The translations under genes were made by a program, and so were the position numbers. From IMG/VR virus record IMGVR_UViG_3300043444_000298, positions 1 through 33,634 of that record: a stretch of 33,634 nucleotides of DNA, one strand, 5' to 3'. This document shows, one piece after another, positions 3,827 through 24,012 of this stretch (position 1 is its first letter; each line of letters starts with the position of its first letter). The notes under the pieces are model-generated. The model saw only the letters and a list, made by a program, of their open reading frames with translations, was not told the DNA's origin and did not search any database. The DNA is from a virus.

Positions 3827-5211
3827 GTTGATTTGCTCCTGTTCTTCAGGACCCGCTCCCTGTCGGCTATCAATTGCCGCTCTTGTTCATCGTAGTATTC
3901 GATTGTACCACGTTTAGGGGCCTGCATGGGTGGTTGCTCGCGGTAGTAGTAGGACTTGCGCCAAGCATACAACACCGCATCGGCACAGTCATTGGGCTGC
4001 CCAGGGTTTTCGACCTGCTTGCCGTCTGCCCAGGTCAGGGATTGCCACTCCTCGATAACGGGGCTGTCCTCAGTCACTTGTATCCTGGATGCCTGCATCT
4101 CTGAGTTGAATAGGTCGATGTAGAGGCGCTTCTCACGTTTCTGTGCGGCCTCACAGTTGATACCGTACCGGGCACGAAACTCCTCAGCAATGGATTTGCC
4201 CAGGCCCCCTTCGTCGATGACCACAGAGGTCACGTTGTGGGCCTTGATGAGCTCCTGGGCGCGCCTTGCGATGTCCGACATGAGCACCTTGCCGTGCTTC
4301 TCAACGTGGGTCACAAAGGCTGTGGGGCTGTCCTGTTCATGGGCCACGACGGCCAGGGCTGTCTTGTCCTCAAAGCCTAGGTCAATACCAAGGACGGTCT
4401 GTGCAAAGTGCGTGGGCAGGCTGCGTGCTACGTTGCGCAGTGGGTTGAACAGATAGACCATCTCATCGGAGGACTTGGCCCACTGGCCATAGTACTCGCG
4501 TAGCAGGACCGGGTTGTCATCGGTCCAGCCCCGGCGGCGCTTGAGGTCATCGACCCATGCACGGGCGTCCTTGAGATGTGGGTTATCAAATAGGGTCCAA
4601 TGGAACGACTGCCATTGCTCAGGGTTGTGGTTGGCGCGGTAGAAGTATGATGAGAAGTCCCAACTTGGCGTCCCAATAATCCACAGGTCACCGTTTTCAT
4701 CTAGCGTTGCAGGCTCAAGTATTTCCTCGATCAGTGTGTCGATATGCCCCCTGAACGACGCGCACTCATCCAGGATGACGGTGCGGTAGCTGTGGCCCCG
4801 CAATGTCTCAGCGACGTCCTCCTGGTTGGCACCTGCAAGCCAGACCTCGGAGCCGTTTTGCAATTTGATGATGAGTTCCGTCTCGGATGAGTCGTATCCC
4901 ACGGACAGTTCATCGCACATGCGTTTGAGGCGTGTCCACAACAGGCGCTTGGCCGATTTACGGGTCAGCGCGATGTAGAGGCAGATGCCGTTGGGTCCTG
5001 ACAGCGCAGACTCGATCAGTTTGACTGCTGCCAACTCTGTTTTGCCAGCACGGCGACTGCACCGGATGACCTTGCGTTTGGCTGGATGTTCTGCTGCTGT
5101 GCGTTGTGTTCTGAAGCAATGGTCATAGATGGATCTTAGTCGTGCCTCATATTCAAGCAATGTCAGCAGTTCGGTGTCAGGTTGCATGGTCGATGCGATG
5201 TTGGAGCGCAT
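3817..5211 (-). CDS. terL: Terminase large subunit
   Basis: The DNA-packaging motor and headful or site-specific nuclease. From the ATG at 5211 (464 aa), residues 51-58 give the Walker A-like CSRRAGKT, residues 145-150 the Walker B VILDEC, and IIGTPSWDFSS the coupling region. The nuclease domain opens with LGIDLGFEDKTA (about residue 274), an RNase H-like first acidic strand; VVIDEGGLGKS and NDCADAVLYAW follow. The start is uncertain: TTG 5256, ATG 5211 (GGTGAG 10 nt upstream) and ATG 5187 are in frame. 5187 would overlap the Mom gene by only 11 bp, like other junctions here; 5211 has the better ribosome site. The gene overlaps portal by 10 bp. Confidence 0.92.
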   Translation of the reverse strand: MRSNIASTMQPDTELLTLLEYEARLRSIYDHCFRTQRTAAEHPAKRKVIRCSRRAGKTELAAVKLIESALSGPNGICLYIALTRKSAKRLLWTRLKRMCDELSVGYDSSETELIIKLQNGSEVWLAGANQEDVAETLRGHSYRTVILDECASFRGHIDTLIEEILEPATLDENGDLWIIGTPSWDFSSYFYRANHNPEQWQSFHWTLFDNPHLKDARAWVDDLKRRRGWTDDNPVLLREYYGQWAKSSDEMVYLFNPLRNVARSLPTHFAQTVLGIDLGFEDKTALAVVAHEQDSPTAFVTHVEKHGKVLMSDIARRAQELIKAHNVTSVVIDEGGLGKSIAEEFRARYGINCEAAQKREKRLYIDLFNSEMQASRIQVTEDSPVIEEWQSLTWADGKQVENPGQPNDCADAVLYAWRKSYYYREQPPMQAPKRGTIEYYDEQERQLIADRERVLKNRSKSTWR

Positions 5212-5863
5212 CGGTCGGAATCTCACCGCCCTCTGCTGGTTGGTCACCAGCTGCAACGATACTTTGCTTGATGCGCTTAGGGTATGGCTTTGACAACGAC
5301 AATACTTTGCGTTTCATATCGTCGTCAAGGGGCATGAGATAGCGATACTTTGTAGATCCTTTTACTATTGTCACTCTAGGATCTCGCTCCATTCCCTTAT
5401 ATGAGTTACGAAAAGATCGTCCTTGCCATCTTTTGCCTAAGAAAATGTATTCATCTGACGCTTGTGAACATCCAGAAAAAATCCAATTCCCTCCTTGATA
5501 AACTCCGCCGTGATGGCCTTGTTGAGGGTCAGCAAAGCTAACAATCAATCGTAATCCAGGGTTTGACTTTCTAAGAAACTTTATTGCGATGCTTACAATT
5601 CTTGTGACTGTTGATTGATGCTTTGATAGGGCAATCCGAACGAGTTCACAACCTTGCTCCATTTTTAGACCATATCTTTTAACCAAAGATGATGTCGCCC
5701 CAACCCCAAAGATCACTACACCAATAAACTTATCATTTTCCCATACTCCAATCTTCACGAGTTTGCTTTTTGGGATGCACTTTGAATAGTGCCAATTTTC
5801 ACAAGCATACTTTGCTGCGTCGTGCGTCGCCCAATCTATCCTTAAAACAGGTTTAGAACTCAT
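5177..5863 (-). CDS. mom: Mom-like DNA modification protein
   Basis: This 228-aa protein closely resembles phage Mu Mom, a GNAT-fold enzyme that converts adenine in phage DNA to a carbamoylmethyl derivative, shielding it from host restriction. Family-like segments, in order: RIDWATHDAAKYACENWHYS (8-27), KLVKIGVWENDKFIGVVIF (34-52), GCELVRIALS (71-80), NPGLRLIVSFADPQQGHHGG (101-120) and VYQGGNWIFSG (121-131), then KPYPKRIKQ near the C-terminus. The frame is open upstream to 6055, but that part overlaps the ParB-like gene; ATG 5863 gives an 11-bp overlap and begins where family similarity begins. It is visibly more AT-rich than its neighbours, suggesting acquisition. It lies between the two terminase genes, so modification may be expressed late, with packaging. 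Confidence 0.88.
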   Translation of the reverse strand: MSSKPVLRIDWATHDAAKYACENWHYSKCIPKSKLVKIGVWENDKFIGVVIFGVGATSSLVKRYGLKMEQGCELVRIALSKHQSTVTRIVSIAIKFLRKSNPGLRLIVSFADPQQGHHGGVYQGGNWIFSGCSQASDEYIFLGKRWQGRSFRNSYKGMERDPRVTIVKGSTKYRYLMPLDDDMKRKVLSLSKPYPKRIKQSIVAAGDQPAEGGEIPTDALQHRIDHAT

Positions 5864-6344
5864 GGCCGCAGCTCGGACATGTGACTTTTTTCTTCTCGTC
5901 AAGTTGCCCTTGGTCGTCTTCTGTCCCTGGTTCAAAATCAGGAGATCCGATACTGAGTCCAAGTTGACCATATTCCGACACGTTGAATCCAATGATGCTG
6001 ATGTCAAAGTCCGCCTTGAGTAGGTCTTCAATCTCTTGGCGCAGGATTCCGTCATCCCATCCAGCGTTCATCGCAAGTTTGTTGTCTGCGATGACGTAGG
6101 CACGGGCTTGGTCCGGTGTCAAATGATCCAGATTGACACAGGGCACCTTGTCCCTACCAAGGCGCTTAGCTGCCTCCACACGGCAATGCCCTGCCAGAAT
6201 GGTGTTCTTGTGCAGCAGGACGGGGTTAGTGAACCCAAACTCCTCGATGGACCGCATGACCTGCTTGATCTGGTCTTCGGAGTGTGTGCGGCTGTTTTTG
6301 GCGTATGGGATGAGGTCCTTGATCTTGCGCTCTGCTACGGTCAT
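5853..6344 (-). CDS. ParB/Srx-like domain protein with C-terminal CxxC
   Basis: This 163-aa protein has a ParB N-terminal-type fold: VAERKIKDLIPYAKNSRTHS (3-22), a helix, then TILAGHCRVEAAKRLG (48-63), which carries the GxxR motif, and ARAYVIADNKLA. It lacks a partner ParA and the ParB DNA-binding helix-turn-helix domain, so plasmid partition is unlikely. Phages often carry such domains alone or fused to DNA methyltransferases, where their role is poorly known (nuclease, NTPase or DNA-targeting). The last residues, TCPSCGHEF, form half of a zinc ribbon. Its ATG overlaps the small terminase stop (TGATG) and its end overlaps the mom start, so the three genes are probably co-translated. Confidence 0.8.
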   Translation of the reverse strand: MTVAERKIKDLIPYAKNSRTHSEDQIKQVMRSIEEFGFTNPVLLHKNTILAGHCRVEAAKRLGRDKVPCVNLDHLTPDQARAYVIADNKLAMNAGWDDGILRQEIEDLLKADFDISIIGFNVSEYGQLGLSIGSPDFEPGTEDDQGQLDEKKKVTCPSCGHEF

Positions 6345-11551: not shown

Positions 11552-12309
11552 CCGAATGGCCCACGTTTCACACCGTTCCTGCGGTCGATATACGTATCAA
11601 GGGCCTTGTTACGGGCCAGCAGGCCGAGTTGTATGGTAGCAGGAGGGACCTCCTGATACTCGACCCTGTATGGTGCTACCGACTCGATCCAGACAATCCC
11701 ATGGGCTGTGGCTGCGGGGGCCATGGACCCATAGTGGGCCAGTTGGCAATGATAGTTGCTGGCGTACAGAACATCGTTGCGCTTTGACCAGTCGCTGATC
11801 GTTTTCAAGTCGATGAGTGTTGTCATCAACTCATCATGATGCAACCAGTCCAGTTTGCCTTTTGTGTTGATACCGTGGTACACACCCCACACCTCCACCT
11901 CCGTGGTCGCTGTTGTGACGTTCCCCAACGCCATCTCAGCGGCCATGGTTTGGAAGTTGGCCTTGATGTGCTCCAATGCCCATCCGTGCTCATGCCGGAT
12001 GACAATGCCGCCCTGGTGCTCGGCCTGGGCCTCTGCCTCTGCCTTGATGGCCTTCCCCTCTTTGAGTGCGAAAGACTTGACGTAGGGCATCACAACGTCC
12101 TTTGCGTGGTGCCATGGCTCAAGTAGGGCCCGGTGTACCAGGGTCCCAAACTCAGCCGCTGGGGACGGGTCCCGCTGCATCCACTCAGGCAGAGTGCCAG
12201 CCTCGATAAGCTTGCGCTCAAAGTGCCATCGCTCGAAGTCTGCGACCATGGCCCTGATGTCGGAGCCGCCAAGGGCAAGTGAGGCGCGGTAGGCATCAGG
12301 CTGCGTCAT
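11548..12309 (-). CDS. RecE-like (PD-(D/E)XK) exonuclease
   Basis: This 253-aa protein fits the phage recombination exonucleases related to the C-terminal part of RecE. FGTLVHRALLEP (54-65) has the early His59; TEVEV (136-140) holds Glu137; KGKLDWLHHDE (150-160) has Asp154; TLIDLKTISDW (164-174) gives Asp167 and Lys169; and CQLAHYG has the trailing Gln. It should degrade one strand of double-stranded DNA 5'-3' to make overhangs for single-strand annealing. It is the last gene of a cassette with DUF669 and Sak4-like genes, overlapping the preceding helix-turn-helix gene by 14 bp. An ATG at 12309 is the start. Confidence 0.85.
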   Translation of the reverse strand: MTQPDAYRASLALGGSDIRAMVADFERWHFERKLIEAGTLPEWMQRDPSPAAEFGTLVHRALLEPWHHAKDVVMPYVKSFALKEGKAIKAEAEAQAEHQGGIVIRHEHGWALEHIKANFQTMAAEMALGNVTTATTEVEVWGVYHGINTKGKLDWLHHDELMTTLIDLKTISDWSKRNDVLYASNYHCQLAHYGSMAPAATAHGIVWIESVAPYRVEYQEVPPATIQLGLLARNKALDTYIDRRNGVKRGPFG

Positions 12310-12520
12310 CGTGTTTATTTCCTAGATCACGTTTTTCCCCAACAGCACGGCGCAGGGTCTTAGGATGATATGGCAGGATGACACGGAAGTCCTTGGGGAC
12401 CTCCCATGCACGACCGATGCGGACGGCACCCGTGACCCGGCCCTCGATCAGCCAACGGCAGAATGTACCGTGGCACACACCACAACGCGCTGCGGCCTGG
12501 GCAGCTGTCAGGAATCTCAT
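12296..12520 (-). CDS. Excisionase/AlpA-like helix-turn-helix protein
   Basis: This 74-aa protein has the pattern of a winged HTH_17 or excisionase-type domain: FLTAAQAAARCGVCHGTFCR, WLIEGRVTGAVRIGRAWEVP. This first helix pair followed by a wing is typical of AlpA/MerR-like DNA-binding proteins. It may regulate the recombination operon. Its ATGA overlaps the stop of the DUF669 gene, and its end overlaps the exonuclease by 14 bp, so it is translated within the cassette. No integrase is nearby, so a role in excision is not supported. Confidence 0.7.
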   Translation of the reverse strand: MRFLTAAQAAARCGVCHGTFCRWLIEGRVTGAVRIGRAWEVPKDFRVILPYHPKTLRRAVGEKRDLGNKHDDAA

Positions 12521-13040: not shown

Positions 13041-13727
13041 TTAGACCTTGAGTGATGTCCAGAAGTCGGCTGCTGGATTTGCAACCTCATCGGGGATGGG
13101 CCACCTAGATTTTGCCACATATTGTGGCTTGTCTGTTGTCAGCAGCACTCGCGTGCCGTTGCCAATGGCCTTGTCGTCCTTGACCAGGACCTTTTGCTTC
13201 AGCAGGAACACCCCGTCCACCTGGGAGATGACCTGCGGGTGCAAATCTTTGTCGCAGTCCAGTTCAAACCTGTCATAGGTCTGCTGCGAGACGGGGTCCG
13301 TCACCTCACGCACCTTGGCGTGGGCGATGACTAGGACGTTCTTGCCCGCCTCTCTGAAGTTTCTGCCGATGTCGGTGATGAGCTTAGTAAACTCCTGCCG
13401 CCACATCTTTTTGGACCTGCCAAAGTCTAGGGCCTCAATAGTGGTCCAGCCTTTCTCGGCGCACATCTGGGCTGTATGGACCCGCTCCAGTGCTGTGAGG
13501 CTGTCGATGACCAGTGTTGAGAACTCTGCCTCTATGAGGTGATTTAGAGCTCCTGACAGCGTTGTGTCGTCTAGGGTGATGCGAGACACGTCAAGCAGGT
13601 CCGTGCCCCGCTCAAGGTCTAGGAACACTGGGTCTGGGCATTGTGCTGCCAAGGTGGTCTTGCCCACACCGGGGGCACCATACAGAATCGCGTACCAAGG
13701 GGACTGTCTGCGGCCTTTGATAATCAT
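13041..13727 (-). CDS. Sak4-like AAA ATPase (RecA-type single-strand annealing)
   Basis: This 228-aa protein has Walker A GAPGVGKT (17-24), Walker B TLVIDSLTALERVH (71-84) and NVLVIAHAKVREV as a sensor segment. The whole pattern, including FLDLERGTDLLDVSRI and LKQKVLVKDDKAIGNG, matches phage AAA_24/Sak4-type ATPases, RecA-fold proteins that promote annealing or strand exchange of ssDNA. Together with the RecE-like nuclease and DUF669 protein it forms a recombination set. Its ATG (13727) is inside the upstream gene's end (ATGA overlap). The replicative role is inference from family and context. Confidence 0.82.
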   Translation of the reverse strand: MIIKGRRQSPWYAILYGAPGVGKTTLAAQCPDPVFLDLERGTDLLDVSRITLDDTTLSGALNHLIEAEFSTLVIDSLTALERVHTAQMCAEKGWTTIEALDFGRSKKMWRQEFTKLITDIGRNFREAGKNVLVIAHAKVREVTDPVSQQTYDRFELDCDKDLHPQVISQVDGVFLLKQKVLVKDDKAIGNGTRVLLTTDKPQYVAKSRWPIPDEVANPAADFWTSLKV

Positions 13728-14143
13728 CGTGTCTCCATCTGTTTAAGAATGTGCAGTACGTCGTCCGCCGTGCCCGTGACCTGGGCCTTGCCGATGTGCA
13801 GGGTGACGGTGCGGGCGGGTCTTGTGGGCAGTGACACAGCCTTAGACTTAGACTTAGCAGCTTTAGCATGACGCCTTGCAATCCTGGCATCAGCCCTTGC
13901 AGCCTTGGCCTTGTTTTTTGCGTCAATTAAGTCGATTTTAGCAAACTGCTTGGCTATCTGAGATGCACTACGCCCCGTGTGGCGCATGATGACCTTGATG
14001 GCCTCATCCTTGCCCCTGGTTTGCCCTAGGACATTAGACAGGTTTCTTGTGATCCTCCATAATTCATTGGGTGGCTTGCCGTTGCGCTTCAATTGCTGCT
14101 GCCAGCGCAGCATCACTTCTTCTTCTCTCGCGTCCGTGTTCAT
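13724..14143 (-). CDS. Basic helical protein, 139 aa
   Basis: No family is recognised. The N-terminal ~70 residues are helical: NELWRITRNLSNVLGQTRGK and DEAIKVIMRHTGRSASQIAK (a helix-turn-helix-like end), and then comes an Ala/Lys/Arg-rich stretch (AKNKAKAARADARIARRHAK). The C-terminus, TLHIGKAQVTGTADDVLHIL, looks like a small beta/helix unit. The charge suggests nucleic-acid binding. It is the first gene of the recombination operon, with a near-perfect GGAGGTGAT ribosome site and a likely promoter at 14163-14191. Confidence 0.65.
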   Translation of the reverse strand: MNTDAREEEVMLRWQQQLKRNGKPPNELWRITRNLSNVLGQTRGKDEAIKVIMRHTGRSASQIAKQFAKIDLIDAKNKAKAARADARIARRHAKAAKSKSKAVSLPTRPARTVTLHIGKAQVTGTADDVLHILKQMETR

Positions 14144-14162: not shown

Positions 14163-14191
14163 CACATATTGCGAGTGCGGGGGGATGTCAA
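14163..14191 (-). promoter_or_regulatory. Candidate promoter of the recombination operon
   Basis: On the minus strand, TTGACA (14191-14186, perfect) is followed after 17 bp by TATGTG (14168-14163, 3 of 6). Transcription would start near 14156, giving a leader of about 13 nt before the ATG at 14143. Confidence 0.45.
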
Positions 14192-14380
14192 ATTTTGCCA
14201 GTCCGATTTGTTGACCGCGCCGCTGAAGTGTGGCAGTATTGGAATACCCCAGACGACCGACCGATAGCCGACCGACGGTGCCCGATTCCCAATCTCACAA
14301 ATTAGTGCATCACTGTGTCGCGACTCTCTCACCCATTGTTACTGGCGCCGTTGCCGCTGTCAGGCCCCTAGACTGTGCCC

Positions 14381-14509
14381 CCCCAGACTCCCTTCCCTCC
14401 TGCACTCCCTCCAGTGCCCGGAGGTCTAATGGCTGTGCTATAAATTGATGCAACATAGCGTGACCCTCCGGGTACCGTTGGGCTGGTCTGGAGGGAGGGA
14501 AGTCTGGGG
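14381..14509. repeat. Long inverted repeat, 20-nt imperfect arms
   Basis: CCCCAGACTCCCTTCCCTCC (14381-14400) is nearly the reverse complement of GGAGGGAGGGAAGTCTGGGG (14490-14509); the two arms differ in only two positions. They are 89 bp apart and are strictly pyrimidine/purine biased except for a few bases. Confidence 0.6.
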
Positions 14510-14510
14510 T

Positions 14511-14561
14511 GTGTGTACCTTCTGTGTACGTTTTTTGGCAAAAAACACACATGGTACACAC
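14511..14561. repeat. Nested hairpin with GTGTGTACC arms
   Basis: GTGTGTACC (14511-14519) pairs with GGTACACAC (14553-14561); inside it TGTGT (14523-14527) pairs with ACACA (14547-14551), and GTTTTTT (14530-14536) pairs with AAAAAAC (14540-14546) around a GGC loop. About 21 base pairs in 51 nt with two small bulges make a strong potential cruciform. Confidence 0.65.
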
Positions 14562-14878
14562 CAAGGTACACACCTTTATAACAATGATAACATATACTTA
14601 AGTACCTACTGTGTACCTGTGTACCTTTATATTCTCAAACTTTATATACAAACCTCTTATGTTTGTTTTTTCCAAAAGTGTTGGACAAAAAAATGAAAAA
14701 AGGTACACGGACAAAAATGCTCATTAATGAGTCATTTGGAGACTTTTTATGTGTCCTGGATACAATGCTTTTTTGGGGCTATTTGGGCAAGTCGTTGTTT
14801 GTATACTGTTTTTTAATTTTAGGGATGAGTCAGAGCTACTTGGAATCGGTGTGCATACCTCGATCAAAAAGGTACACA
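14511..14878. repeat. GGTACACA/TGTGTACC repeats (iteron-like)
   Basis: Eight-mers GGTACACA or their complement TGTGTACC lie at 14512-14519, 14553-14560, 14565-14572, 14610-14617, 14618-14625 and 14871-14878. Near-copies lie at 14523-14530 (TGTGTACG) and 14702-14709 (GGTACACG). Both orientations occur, two are adjacent, and two are within the hairpin arms. The last one lies inside a coding frame. Direct repeats of this kind are typical of initiator binding sites. Confidence 0.55.
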
Positions 14879-15141
14879 CCTCAATCCAATCGACGGTCCC
14901 AGGTGCATTTGTGCATTATTTTGTGGCAGATTCTGTGGATGAAAATCTGACCGATGCGGTTTTCCTCGATGCCCCCATCAAAGGGCACCCCATGATGGAT
15001 CTGGCACGGCACTTGGCAAAGGAGTATGCCCAACAATCGGGCATTCCCGACAACGGCACCCCCTCCCTCAAGGACCAAAAACGGAACCGCAAGCTTGCGC
15101 TCAAGGCGCTTGCCGAGATGGGCCTCAAGGCTAGTCGTTAG
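14749..15141 (+). CDS. Unknown protein, 130 aa, between origin and helicase
   Basis: GGAG lies 7 nt before ATG 14749. The first 30 residues are hydrophobic (NAFLGLFGQVVVCILFFNFR) and AT-rich, then the frame becomes GC-rich and clearly coding. It has a tandem motif VHTSIKKVHTSI and a helical C-terminus (HPMMDLARHLAKEYAQQSGI, then DQKRNRKLALKALAEMGLKA). No family was recognised. The basic C-terminal helix suggests DNA binding. A GTG at 14851 is an alternative start that removes the hydrophobic part. It converges on the helicase gene with an 11-bp overlap. Another open frame (14663-14950) overlaps the first part. Confidence 0.6.
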   Translation: MCPGYNAFLGLFGQVVVCILFFNFRDESELLGIGVHTSIKKVHTSIQSTVPGAFVHYFVADSVDENLTDAVFLDAPIKGHPMMDLARHLAKEYAQQSGIPDNGTPSLKDQKRNRKLALKALAEMGLKASR

Positions 15142-16531
15142 TCGTTGACCACAGTGCGGTGCCCCATTTAGGGGAGTCCGTCTTGATGGCCACGTTGCGG
15201 ACCCCTTTGACAGGGTTTGCGGCCTCTCTGATGCGCCCCCTGCCCTTTATATCAATAGCCTTGTCAGCGTCGCACACAGATGGCTGGAGGATGTGCAGCC
15301 GGTCCTTGATATCGGAGACCCCAATAGCATCGCCCTTGAGCATCCTTTTAATGGTCGAGTTGGGCACAAAGCACCCAGCCCGGTATTCCATGTTCTCAAG
15401 GATCCACCCGTCAGCGTCCAGGTGATAGTTGCTGATACACTCCTCTAGTTCCTGTTCATCCATCTTTAAGATGGTCTGCCCTGCTGCGAAGTATTCCAGC
15501 ACAGCGGCGTCAACAATGTGGGGCCACCACATGTCCAGTTCATCGAATATTTCAACCTCGGTCCTCTTTATGCCGTCCTTGCGCGGGGTGGAGCACACCA
15601 GCCGCAGCCTGTCTCTACTGCTGTCCTGACCGTCAATGATGGGCATCTGGTTGCTGGTCATCCAAAAGAATGTATGGTTCCTGAACGTGCGGATGCTTTT
15701 GTATGGTGACCTGCCCGTTAGGAACCGATTGCCGGTGATGGCCTTCATCTCCTCAGTGAGAAACCTGCCCTTGCCTACTTCCTCGGCAATGACCATGCGT
15801 TTGCCTTCAAGCATGGCAATCGTGTAGTCCTCTGTCAGCTTTTTGGGCTTGATGTTAGGCAGAGCACACGGGCCTAGTTTGTGTGCGAGAAAGTTGCACA
15901 GCGTTGTCTTGCCTTCGCCGCCGCTACCATACCAGTATAGAATCTCACGTCTGGGTTCCGAGTCCCATAGCAAGGCCCCGATGGCTGACAGGAGACGGCG
16001 GAACATCGTAGAATCCTGCCCGTCAAAGTCTGCCATGTTGACGCGCAACGAGGTCATAAATGGCCCCAGCGTGTCCCAATTCCGTGGTCCCGTGATGCGC
16101 TTCTCATCGGGGGTGATGCCACACCTGACAAGGGGAATGCGCCTGAAGCAATACCCGCCGTCGTCGATGAACCCGATGGGCCTGATCTCGCCGTCAATGA
16201 CCCTGTCACAGCCCTCTACCTTGAGGAACCCATCGACCAGGAACATGCAGTCCTTGGCTTGCTCGTTGGTCATGCTAATCTTGGGCAGCATCTGCATCTC
16301 GGCCAGTTCGGCTGATGCCACGGCTATCTGAAATATTAGGTCCTCACGCTCAAGGATGGACAGCTGCCCTAGGTCTTCCTTACGGTAGTATGCCAGCCCA
16401 TCGGCGCTTTTGACGGCTACAAAGTTGGGGCTGTCGCGGTCAGTCTCGATGGCTGTCCCGTGCAGCATCCATTCCCTGAGTTGTATTTTGTGTTCTGCTT
16501 TTTTTGCTTGCGTATCAATCTTAGGTGCCAT
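15131..16531 (-). CDS. SF3 (D5/P4-type) replicative helicase
   Basis: This 466-aa protein has the SF3 helicase motifs: Walker A YGSGGEGKTTL (201-211), Walker B MVIAEEVGKG (246-255), motif C TFFWMTSNQMP (287-297) and a basic arginine-finger region SSRDRLRLV (304-312). It should form a ring that unwinds DNA at the replication origin. No primase domain (Prim-pol or zinc-binding) is present, unlike P4-alpha. The N-terminal ~160 residues are of D5_N-like character. It lies beside the candidate origin. The ATG at 16531 is the start, with GGAG 12 nt upstream. A hairpin lies in the leader between this gene and the next one upstream. Confidence 0.9.
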   Translation of the reverse strand: MAPKIDTQAKKAEHKIQLREWMLHGTAIETDRDSPNFVAVKSADGLAYYRKEDLGQLSILEREDLIFQIAVASAELAEMQMLPKISMTNEQAKDCMFLVDGFLKVEGCDRVIDGEIRPIGFIDDGGYCFRRIPLVRCGITPDEKRITGPRNWDTLGPFMTSLRVNMADFDGQDSTMFRRLLSAIGALLWDSEPRREILYWYGSGGEGKTTLCNFLAHKLGPCALPNIKPKKLTEDYTIAMLEGKRMVIAEEVGKGRFLTEEMKAITGNRFLTGRSPYKSIRTFRNHTFFWMTSNQMPIIDGQDSSRDRLRLVCSTPRKDGIKRTEVEIFDELDMWWPHIVDAAVLEYFAAGQTILKMDEQELEECISNYHLDADGWILENMEYRAGCFVPNSTIKRMLKGDAIGVSDIKDRLHILQPSVCDADKAIDIKGRGRIREAANPVKGVRNVAIKTDSPKWGTALWSTTND

Positions 16532-18315: not shown

Positions 18316-18956
<641 letters not shown>

Positions 18957-18960
<4 letters not shown>

Positions 18961-19235
18961 AGTTTGAGGACATCCTGCCTAAGATTCGGAAGGGGCGGAA
19001 GGCTAGGCGAGCAGTATGGCTTAGCGCTTTATTTCATAAAGACAGTTCTTTAGGGTTAAAGCAGAGCGATATTTTGTCAGACGACTGGGAGCTGGTGCCG
19101 GAGCCTAGGAAACACAAGGTCACCGTCTGCCTTTGGAGTGACGGTGTCGCACGGTTTCATGGAGATGTGTTCACGTTGAATCCCGGTGACCATATTGTTG
19201 AGGTCAAGGAGATTGAATGGGAAATGCCTGAATGA
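18957..19235 (+). CDS. Tad2/DUF2829-like candidate anti-defence protein
   Basis: The start is GTG 18957 (GGGGAGG upstream, GTGA overlap). The 92-aa product begins MKFEDILPKIRKGRKARRAV and has SDILSDDWELVPEP at the end of the first half. This combination of 'F-ILp-l--Gk-arR--W' and 'DiL-DDWEvv' is typical of DUF2829, the Thoeris anti-defence Tad2-like family, which sequesters immune nucleotide signals. The middle is shorter than in well-known members. The second half (TVCLWSDGVARFHGDVFTLN, VKEIEWEMPE) looks like an added beta unit. The anti-defence role is inference from family resemblance and needs testing. Confidence 0.55.
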
Positions 19236-22143: not shown

Positions 22144-24012
22144 TTAAACGTCATAGTACGGAATCTTGCGATCCGTACCGTTTACGTTGATTGTGATATA
22201 TCCACGCGCCTGTGCTGGTAGCGTTGATGTTGCTCCGCTTGTTGCGGTTGTGGACGTCGCTGTGTTGAGTCGGTGGGTTGGCGTTGTGGACGCAGCCCCC
22301 AACGTCCAGGCCCCGGCATTAGTGCATCTAATCACTTCCTGTAGTGTTGCTGTCGATCCAGCCGAATGTGAGACGCTTGTCGTGGTTGATAAAGAAAATG
22401 CCGAGTTACCTGTCGCAGTTGCGCCCGATACTGTCAGGACAGATCCTGCTGTGTTGGCGGTCGAATGTTTCCAAGTCCCGCCCTCGAAGTACATCCCGTT
22501 ACTTAGTAACGCCCCAGTGATGCCTCCATTGGTCATCATCAAGTTAGCAGTCTGGGATCCTATGTAAGGATAACTTACGGTCTGCGTGAATGAACTACCG
22601 GCAGCGGTCATGTAAAGACTGCCGGATGTATCAACCGTCAGCTTCGTCGTCCCATTCGTCTCAATATTGACGCCAAAGTTGTCATTGGTCCCGATCGTCA
22701 TCGCAGCACCCAAGGTGTTCCCACCCTGGACTATGGCCTGATTGCTGCTACCTGGAGCCGATGACTGCACGACCCAGCGAGAGTTGACGCTGTCCCAAGT
22801 CAGGATGACCCAGGAGCCCGACACGTCCATCACAAGGGTCTCGTTCACAGCGTAGCCGTCGATGGCCTGACCCGTTGCGGGTGCGATCGTCAAGTTGTTG
22901 GTAGCGAAGGTTTCCCTGGCATCCAGAAAGCCAATAGACGCCTTGGCTGTGCCGCTAGGCAGTGTGATCGTAAAGCCTGCAGAGGTCGTGTTGCAGAGGT
23001 ACAGCGTGCCCGCGACTGCGGGGCTCAGCGCCGTGCTGCGCTCGACGGGGTCGAGACCGCCGCCAATGGCGACCTCCAGGCCCGCAGAGTTGAGCCTGAA
23101 CAGTCTGTCGTCCGACTTGCTGTAAATGCGTAGCGTGCCAGCAGAGGGGCTTGCAGGCGTCGATGCATGGGGTGCGTCGTAGTACGAGCTGATGATGGGG
23201 TTGGTCAGGGTCGGGGTTGTTAGTGTCTTGTCGGTCAGCGTCTGTGAACCTGATGACAGTACAAAATCGGCTGACGCCCCCACGTTGGGAATGGTGTAGG
23301 TGCGGTTGCCACCGGATGCCAGGGCTGTGATCTCGGTGTGGTTGCCAGCAGGGTTAAGATAGATGTTGCCGTTGGCACGCAGCACCGATGAGAACGTGCT
23401 GGCCCCACCGAATGTGTTGGTGCCGTTGAATGTTTTGTTGCCTGTGAAGGTCTGTGTGCCCTCAAGGGCAGCAAAGGTGGGGTCCGTGCTGAGGTCGGGG
23501 AACAGCCATGTGCGGGCACTGGCCTGTGTCCCAGGTGACAACACGATGCGGTTAGGTGAAGCCCCCAGGAACAGCGGTGTGGTGGCATCAAAGCGTACCG
23601 TCTGCGAGAATATAGTGCCCGTGCCGCTGAACGTCTGGTTAGCTGCCTCAAGCAGGCTGAACGTACCCGTGGCACTGACTGCCGCAATGTTGGGCATACT
23701 GTAGGTCAGGTTGCTTGCAGGATTGTTGGGCACATTGACTGTGATCTTGTTGGGCCCAGCACCGAAGGACATCTGGTTGGACGTGGCGGTCAACGCTACG
23801 GATGGTGTGCTGACCTCGCTCGTAAAGGTCTTGGACCCGCCAATGGACTGATTGCCTGAGGTCAGGACCAGCGTTGACGACACAATGCCGGAGTCCTTAA
23901 CTGTGGACCCATCGGTACCGTCCCACAGGACCACAGCGTTGTTGGTCGTTGTGACTGGGCCTGAGATGCCGCCACCGCCGCCACCGTCTACAGGGTATTT
24001 TGCAAAGGCCAT
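22144..24012 (-). CDS. Tail fibre, 622 aa
   Basis: After a Gly-rich start (AKYPVDGGGGGGISGPVTTT), the protein has repeats such as GNQSIGGSKTFTSEVSTPSV, EGTQTFTGNKTFNGTNTFGG and GSQTLTDKTLTTPTLTNPII, which are typical of trimeric phage fibre shafts. It ends in ARGYITINVNGTDRKIPYYD, a common fibre end. The start is ATG 24012 (TAATG overlap with the upstream gene); an ATG at 24042 is possible. It probably makes the fibre shaft, with the 366-aa protein as the partner or tip. Confidence 0.8.
   Translation of the reverse strand: MAFAKYPVDGGGGGGISGPVTTTNNAVVLWDGTDGSTVKDSGIVSSTLVLTSGNQSIGGSKTFTSEVSTPSVALTATSNQMSFGAGPNKITVNVPNNPASNLTYSMPNIAAVSATGTFSLLEAANQTFSGTGTIFSQTVRFDATTPLFLGASPNRIVLSPGTQASARTWLFPDLSTDPTFAALEGTQTFTGNKTFNGTNTFGGASTFSSVLRANGNIYLNPAGNHTEITALASGGNRTYTIPNVGASADFVLSSGSQTLTDKTLTTPTLTNPIISSYYDAPHASTPASPSAGTLRIYSKSDDRLFRLNSAGLEVAIGGGLDPVERSTALSPAVAGTLYLCNTTSAGFTITLPSGTAKASIGFLDARETFATNNLTIAPATGQAIDGYAVNETLVMDVSGSWVILTWDSVNSRWVVQSSAPGSSNQAIVQGGNTLGAAMTIGTNDNFGVNIETNGTTKLTVDTSGSLYMTAAGSSFTQTVSYPYIGSQTANLMMTNGGITGALLSNGMYFEGGTWKHSTANTAGSVLTVSGATATGNSAFSLSTTTSVSHSAGSTATLQEVIRCTNAGAWTLGAASTTPTHRLNTATSTTATSGATSTLPAQARGYITINVNGTDRKIPYYDV

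Follow-up and report, generated by a model that had tools for sequence, protein, structure and literature searches.

A putative replication origin at the 3′ end of a phage SF3 helicase gene, with a conserved promoter and hairpin beside it

Repeats, hairpins and AT-rich DNA crowded into a few hundred bases of a phage genome raise the question of whether they mark a replication origin and, if they do, whether all of them belong to the same working unit. The question is posed here by a region of the IMG/VR virus record IMGVR_UViG_3300043444_000298 (G000, also G0), the whole of which, 33634 bases, is the window of this analysis. A first-pass annotation, made from the sequence alone, had proposed a candidate origin at 14381-14878, in which an inverted repeat, a nested hairpin, a recurring 8-mer and an AT-rich tract were listed together next to an SF3 helicase gene. 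We compared this region with related phages and with distant loci that encode SF3 proteins.

Genomic setting and relatives

The record encodes a terminase, a portal protein, a lysozyme and tail-like proteins (the portal and tail calls rest on position and on comparison with relatives), together with a recombination set made up of Sak4, a DUF669-like single-strand-binding protein and an exonuclease. On one side of the region is a recombination operon that runs leftward from 14143; on the other is the SF3 helicase gene, with its 3′ end the nearer one. The first gene of the operon (13724-14143, minus strand) encodes 139 aa and has no family match, and the Sak4-like ssDNA annealing ATPase lies at 13041-13727 on the same strand (PHROG 124, E 2e-38). 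Elsewhere, 5177-6055 is a DNA-modification gene that adjoins a ParB_N-like ORF (5853-6344) and encodes a Mom-family protein (PF25680, E 7e-42), and 18933-19235 has a match to a Tad2-like Thoeris anti-defence domain that is under Pfam's cut-off (E 1.4e-4). A 346-aa leftward frame at 1-1038, just past a 274-aa gene at 1080-1904, extends out of the record on the left; by its position it is probably the major capsid gene, cut at the record end.

Scans of IMG/VR recovered two true relatives, and the phage group found comprises three members only: the window; G001 (IMGVR_UViG_3300002835_000507), whose Sak4 is 80% identical to that of the window; and G002 (IMGVR_UViG_3300048670_000723), with a portal 68% and a Sak4 about 56-57% identical. 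Scans with promoter-block and hairpin patterns recovered one or both of these phages, and three further matches in the same scans (L023, L024 and L040) were judged from their sequence to be chance. The iteron-pattern scan returned one contig, in which a Sak4 search had no match, and the scan of IMG/VR with the helicase protein returned no relative. Another contig, L006, was not counted as independent because its portal match figures are the same as those of G002. Genome scans gave no match, and neither did comparison of the region with phage, plasmid and E. coli DNA. Sak4 pieces at both contig ends of G001 (L003/L004) overlap, with residues 42-184 in both, which suggests that this genome is terminally redundant and complete.

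A pattern match in the window places a putative leftward promoter of the recombination operon at 14163-14191 (minus strand; -35 TTGACA at 14191-14186, 17 bp, -10 TATGTG). The pattern search found a counterpart in G002 (TTGACC, 17 bp, TATACG), and the same pattern found none in G001. By eye, the C-terminal end of the 139-aa protein resembles a small G002 protein in the same position (VTLHIGKAQVTG.. / VTLTINGLTLRG..).

Iterons around an AT-rich spacer

Exact copies of the 8-mer GGTACACA, or TGTGTACC on the opposite strand, start at 14512 (-), 14553 (+), 14565 (+), 14610 (-), 14618 (-) and 14871 (+), which places six of the eight sites of the whole window within 367 bp. The count of eight compares with 1.03 ± 0.97 expected (0 of 100 shuffles reach it), and an 8-mer repeated six times was produced by none of 2000 dinucleotide shuffles of the region itself. 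The first-pass annotation had counted these six sites between 14512 and 14878 and two near-copies (14523-14530 and 14702-14709), a count that we reproduce; its concern that the word might be equally common elsewhere is answered by just two sites outside the region (11877 and 24748), both within coding genes. Strong 8-mer clustering recurs just once in the record, at 18551-18800, in low-complexity repeats coding for Gly, Tyr and His (CGGGCACG, six copies).

Most of the iterons form pairs. At 14512-14530 on the minus strand, TGTGTACC is joined by the near-copy TGTGTACG (14523-14530), 11 bp apart. The left core pair, two GGTACACA sites 12 bp apart (14553-14572, plus strand), and the right core pair, two TGTGTACC sites 8 bp apart and inverted relative to it (14610-14625, minus strand), enclose a 37-bp AT-rich spacer (14573-14609), the putative melting site. 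This spacer falls within the AT-richest part of the record (14551-14731): its 12 AT-richest 100-bp windows all start between 14551 and 14721, in agreement with the AT-rich tract noticed earlier. Beyond the right pair, reading directly from the sequence gives one near-iteron, GGTACACG (14702-14709, plus strand), and an isolated GGTACACA at 14871-14878 (plus strand) lies outside the core. Cumulative GC skew, which had been put forward as a way to map the start of replication, has its minimum at 6195 and its maximum at 23968, with no sharp reversal at the region.

Both relatives share the layout of the window, in which an iteron pair, an AT-rich spacer and an inverted pair stand at the 3′ end of the SF3 helicase gene, and the iteron sequence is different in each of the three phages. 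GGTACACA has no copy in G001 and a single copy, elsewhere, in G002. At the syntenic place G001 carries seven copies of ATCACCAA, arranged as a plus-strand pair, a 63-bp AT-rich spacer, a minus-strand pair and three further copies, and G002 carries two copies of ACGGCACG, an AT-rich spacer, and an inverted CGTGCCGT with near-copies; in both phages the helicase gene ends right beside the repeats. The left core pair of the window agrees with these pairs in position and orientation, and the right core pair has counterparts in both. The G002 repeat is the weakest of the three, with three exact 8-mer copies (equalled in 2 of 2000 shuffles), and this 8-mer does not rank first among the repeats of the 9.5-kb piece. 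The iterons and the AT-rich spacer at 14512-14625 are, in sequence terms, a well-supported candidate for the origin core.

The adjacent helicase and distant SF3 loci

The SF3 helicase gene (15131-16531, minus strand; PF19263, E 5e-14; PHROG 1156, E 1e-22) encodes a 466-aa putative initiator, and its 3′ end faces the candidate origin. The earlier observation that such a gene lies nearby is correct, with the stop codon at 15131 about 250 bp from the end of the region and 500 bp from the core; that the candidate origin is at the 3′ end of the gene, not the 5′ end, had been missed. Family matches are restricted to the SF3 part of the protein, at about residues 166-320, as are PDB profile matches to 7ola and 6k9c; the N-terminal 165 residues match nothing, and a search of the 466 aa for a primase domain had no match. 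No polymerase or primase was recognised among the window proteins scanned against Pfam (all but a few ORFs), so an SF3-only initiator that works with host factors is reasonable. An AlphaFold model of the helicase built from three sequences reached a pLDDT of 40, too poor to reveal a DNA-binding domain such as a winged helix.

We then considered five distant phages and satellites, picked solely by SF3 protein match to the window's helicase and each represented by a 7.4-kb locus. In 5/5 of these loci the 8-mer cluster with the most copies follows immediately on the 3′ end of the SF3 gene: CGGGTGCC ten times in GMA4, AAGGTGGA five times in PSA, ACGGGAGG five times in A2, where the cluster is inside the annotated rep_origin, GGCACAGA seven times in Syra333, and GTGTATAA five times in Javan402. 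Bordetella phage BPP-1 likewise has its top repeat window (CGAGGCAA, four copies; L047 1426-1950) 3′ of the primase gene, whereas the pRN1 paper reports no origin iterons for BIP-1 (PMC4234260). Because two relatives share the layout with different iterons, and because all five distant loci have their repeats in the same place, the origin reading is strongly supported, and 14512-14625 is very probably the core of a phage replication origin served by the adjacent SF3 helicase.

Could the repeats instead be operators, at which a repressor or activator bound to GGTACACA controls promoters in the stretch that separates the recombination operon from the helicase gene, with replication starting elsewhere? 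Divergent promoter-like sequences are present at 14163-14191 and 14211-14239, a small HTH_17 protein (12296-12520) is kept in all three phages, and paired iterons close to a promoter might serve as operators too. However, the sites lie at least 270 bp from these promoters, around the AT-rich spacer rather than around a recognised promoter, and repeat clusters occupy the corresponding place at five distant SF3 loci. The divergence of the proteins points the same way: the HTH proteins of the window and G001 share 58% identity, yet the iterons of the two phages are unrelated, and their helicases are only 28% identical, compared with 61-81% for Sak4, exonuclease and resolvase. Since the iterons differ and the helicase has diverged strongly, the helicase fits as their cognate binder better than the HTH protein does. 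We therefore regard operators as a very unlikely explanation of the repeats, and we infer that the helicase binds the iterons.

A conserved promoter and hairpin upstream

The origin proposed by the first-pass annotation stands on these comparisons with relatives and distant loci, but its list of elements does not hold as one unit, since two modules are mixed in it: the iterons and spacer at 14512-14625 form the core, the hairpin (14375-14518) belongs to a promoter-hairpin block at 14211-14518 that is conserved separately, and the site at 14871 is outside the core.

This block opens with a conserved sigma70-like rightward promoter, P_R (TTGACC, 17 bp, CAGTAT; 14211-14239, plus strand), which had escaped the first reading. 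The pattern TTGAC[AC]-N17-CA[AG][CT]AT has one match each in the window, in G001 (sequence L004) and in G002 (sequence L018), at the syntenic place. The conserved start of the putative transcript (14227-14284, plus strand, non-coding; GTGTGGCAGTAT..ATACCCCAGA..GACCGACC..) is 86.7% identical to G002 over 60 bp (blastn), compared with about 56-57% for the neighbouring Sak4. Farther on is a long rod-like imperfect hairpin (14375-14518, plus strand), the arms of which are the 20-nt inverted repeat recorded earlier (14381-14400 and 14490-14509, 90% complementary, with 89 nt between them). The 51-nt nested hairpin was also correctly described (14511-14561, 17-nt arms at 88%). What had not been seen is that the long hairpin, folded as 14371-14520, is the most stable of the 2234 150-nt windows folded (-80.9 kcal/mol, plus strand). 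A hairpin at the syntenic place likewise ranks first in 9.5 kb of G002 and in 10.5 kb of G001, and its sequence in G001 is unrelated to that in the window. The consensus fold of the rod from G0 and G002 (alifold) has a z of -3.45 on the plus strand and -2.47 on the minus strand; that of the whole block (14240-14516) is no better than shuffled columns (z -1.09).

No ORF, small ones included, is common to the block in the three phages; ARAGORN found no tRNA in the window, either in or near the hairpin or elsewhere, and Rfam gave only matches far under gathering scores, mostly to microRNA families. A conserved promoter that leads into a hairpin, with no conserved ORF, suggests either a structured non-coding RNA (a primer or regulator) or a DNA stem-loop like that of pRN1. 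A third explanation would make P_R the promoter of a small rightward gene, with the hairpin as its leader or attenuator. There is a rightward ORF after P_R, at 14749-15141 (at most 130 aa, converging on the helicase gene, no family match), whose base composition at the three codon positions (0.59/0.37/0.55) looks weakly coding-like. In G001 and G002, however, the promoter and hairpin are present and the ORF is absent: the iterons there continue into the end of the helicase gene, and no rightward gene comes before it. Small ORFs common to the block are absent as well; we consider this explanation improbable.

If the hairpin acts as DNA, it would be an initiator assembly or priming site of the pRN1 kind, where a stem-loop of roughly 100 nt downstream of the SF3 gene is required for replication and is conserved in structure, not in sequence (PMC4234260). 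Such a role, which concerns the hairpin only and can coexist with an iteron origin, fits the finding that each of the three phages has its most stable fold at this syntenic position and that the G001 sequence there is unrelated. On the other hand, pRN1 is reported to lack iterons, the conserved promoter points into the hairpin, and the plus strand is the more stable in the three phages (about -80/-74, -77/-73 and -65/-63 kcal/mol, plus versus minus), a weak sign of RNA. A role as DNA is conceivable, and we hold it tentatively.

With a similar degree of reserve we consider a dual origin, in which the SF3/iteron core is combined with a structured non-coding RNA from P_R that serves as a replication primer or copy switch. 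The putative RNA could extend across the hairpin in the direction of the AT-rich melting site. Its start repeats the 5′ arm of the hairpin (CCCCAGA in G0 and G002, ACCGTTC in G001), which would give the 3′ arm two possible pairing partners and allow a two-state pairing; the 7-base repeat may also be chance. That a non-coding RNA is a working part of the origin is a possibility to which we would give clearly less than even weight.

Comparison with known origins and a proposed mechanism

The layout shared with distant SF3 loci argues that the core would work in the same way as the PICI, P4 and phage A2 origins. PICI origins (SaPI, EfCIV583, EcCICFT073) lie immediately 3′ of the initiator gene rep and have an AT-rich region flanked by two iteron sets (PMC6092414), an arrangement that the window shares. 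The element described here is, however, no satellite but a phage that encodes its own terminase, portal and tail-like proteins, and it differs in its 8-bp iterons, its added promoter-hairpin block and an initiator in which no primase domain was found. The rep_origin of Lactobacillus phage A2 (AJ251789, 32208-32717) is directly 3′ of an SF3 primase gene, and its five ACGGGAGG copies, which occur in both orientations, surround a stretch of 84% AT; unlike the window, it has a different iteron and no long hairpin, the best regional fold ranking 137/582 in the locus. In satellite phage P4 the SF3 helicase initiator, the alpha protein, binds origin repeats (PMC4234260), but alpha carries a Toprim-type primase domain, to which the 466-aa protein has no counterpart by domain match.

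For the upstream block the closest likenesses lie elsewhere. In pRN1 and Bordetella phage BIP-1 a long stem-loop, kept in structure but not in sequence, lies downstream of the SF3 replication gene (PMC4234260), although pRN1 is described as iteron-free and the window has iterons and an AT-rich spacer between hairpin and helicase gene. Mycobacteriophages Alma and LadyBird (PMC7157519) and ColE1, with its RNA II, tie a non-coding transcript of a few hundred bases to the origin. The RNA-based prophage origins of mycobacteriophages are described without a Rep protein (PMC7157519), whereas the window has an SF3 initiator and iterons; as regards a ColE1-like RNA-primed origin, the promoter pattern and the fold are conserved, and a structured transcript that would run from the promoter into the origin is putative.

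We propose that the helicase, or one of its domains, binds each iteron pair, and that hexamers would assemble facing each other on the two inverted pairs. The AT-rich spacer would then melt and forks leave in one or both directions, with primase and polymerase supplied by the host. The block at 14211-14518 would be an accessory part of the origin, most likely giving a structured non-coding transcript towards the melting site, as primer or regulator, a role as DNA being about equally plausible.

The origin core is of a known kind, and the conserved promoter and hairpin are its added, less usual part. The compared loci, full-size phages among them, indicate that an origin 3′ of the SF3 gene occurs more widely, which offers a simple origin test: in phages with an SF3 helicase, the most repeated short word should be sought directly 3′ of the helicase gene. 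If the upstream block makes an RNA that acts in initiation, protein-led and RNA-led initiation would be joined in one origin.
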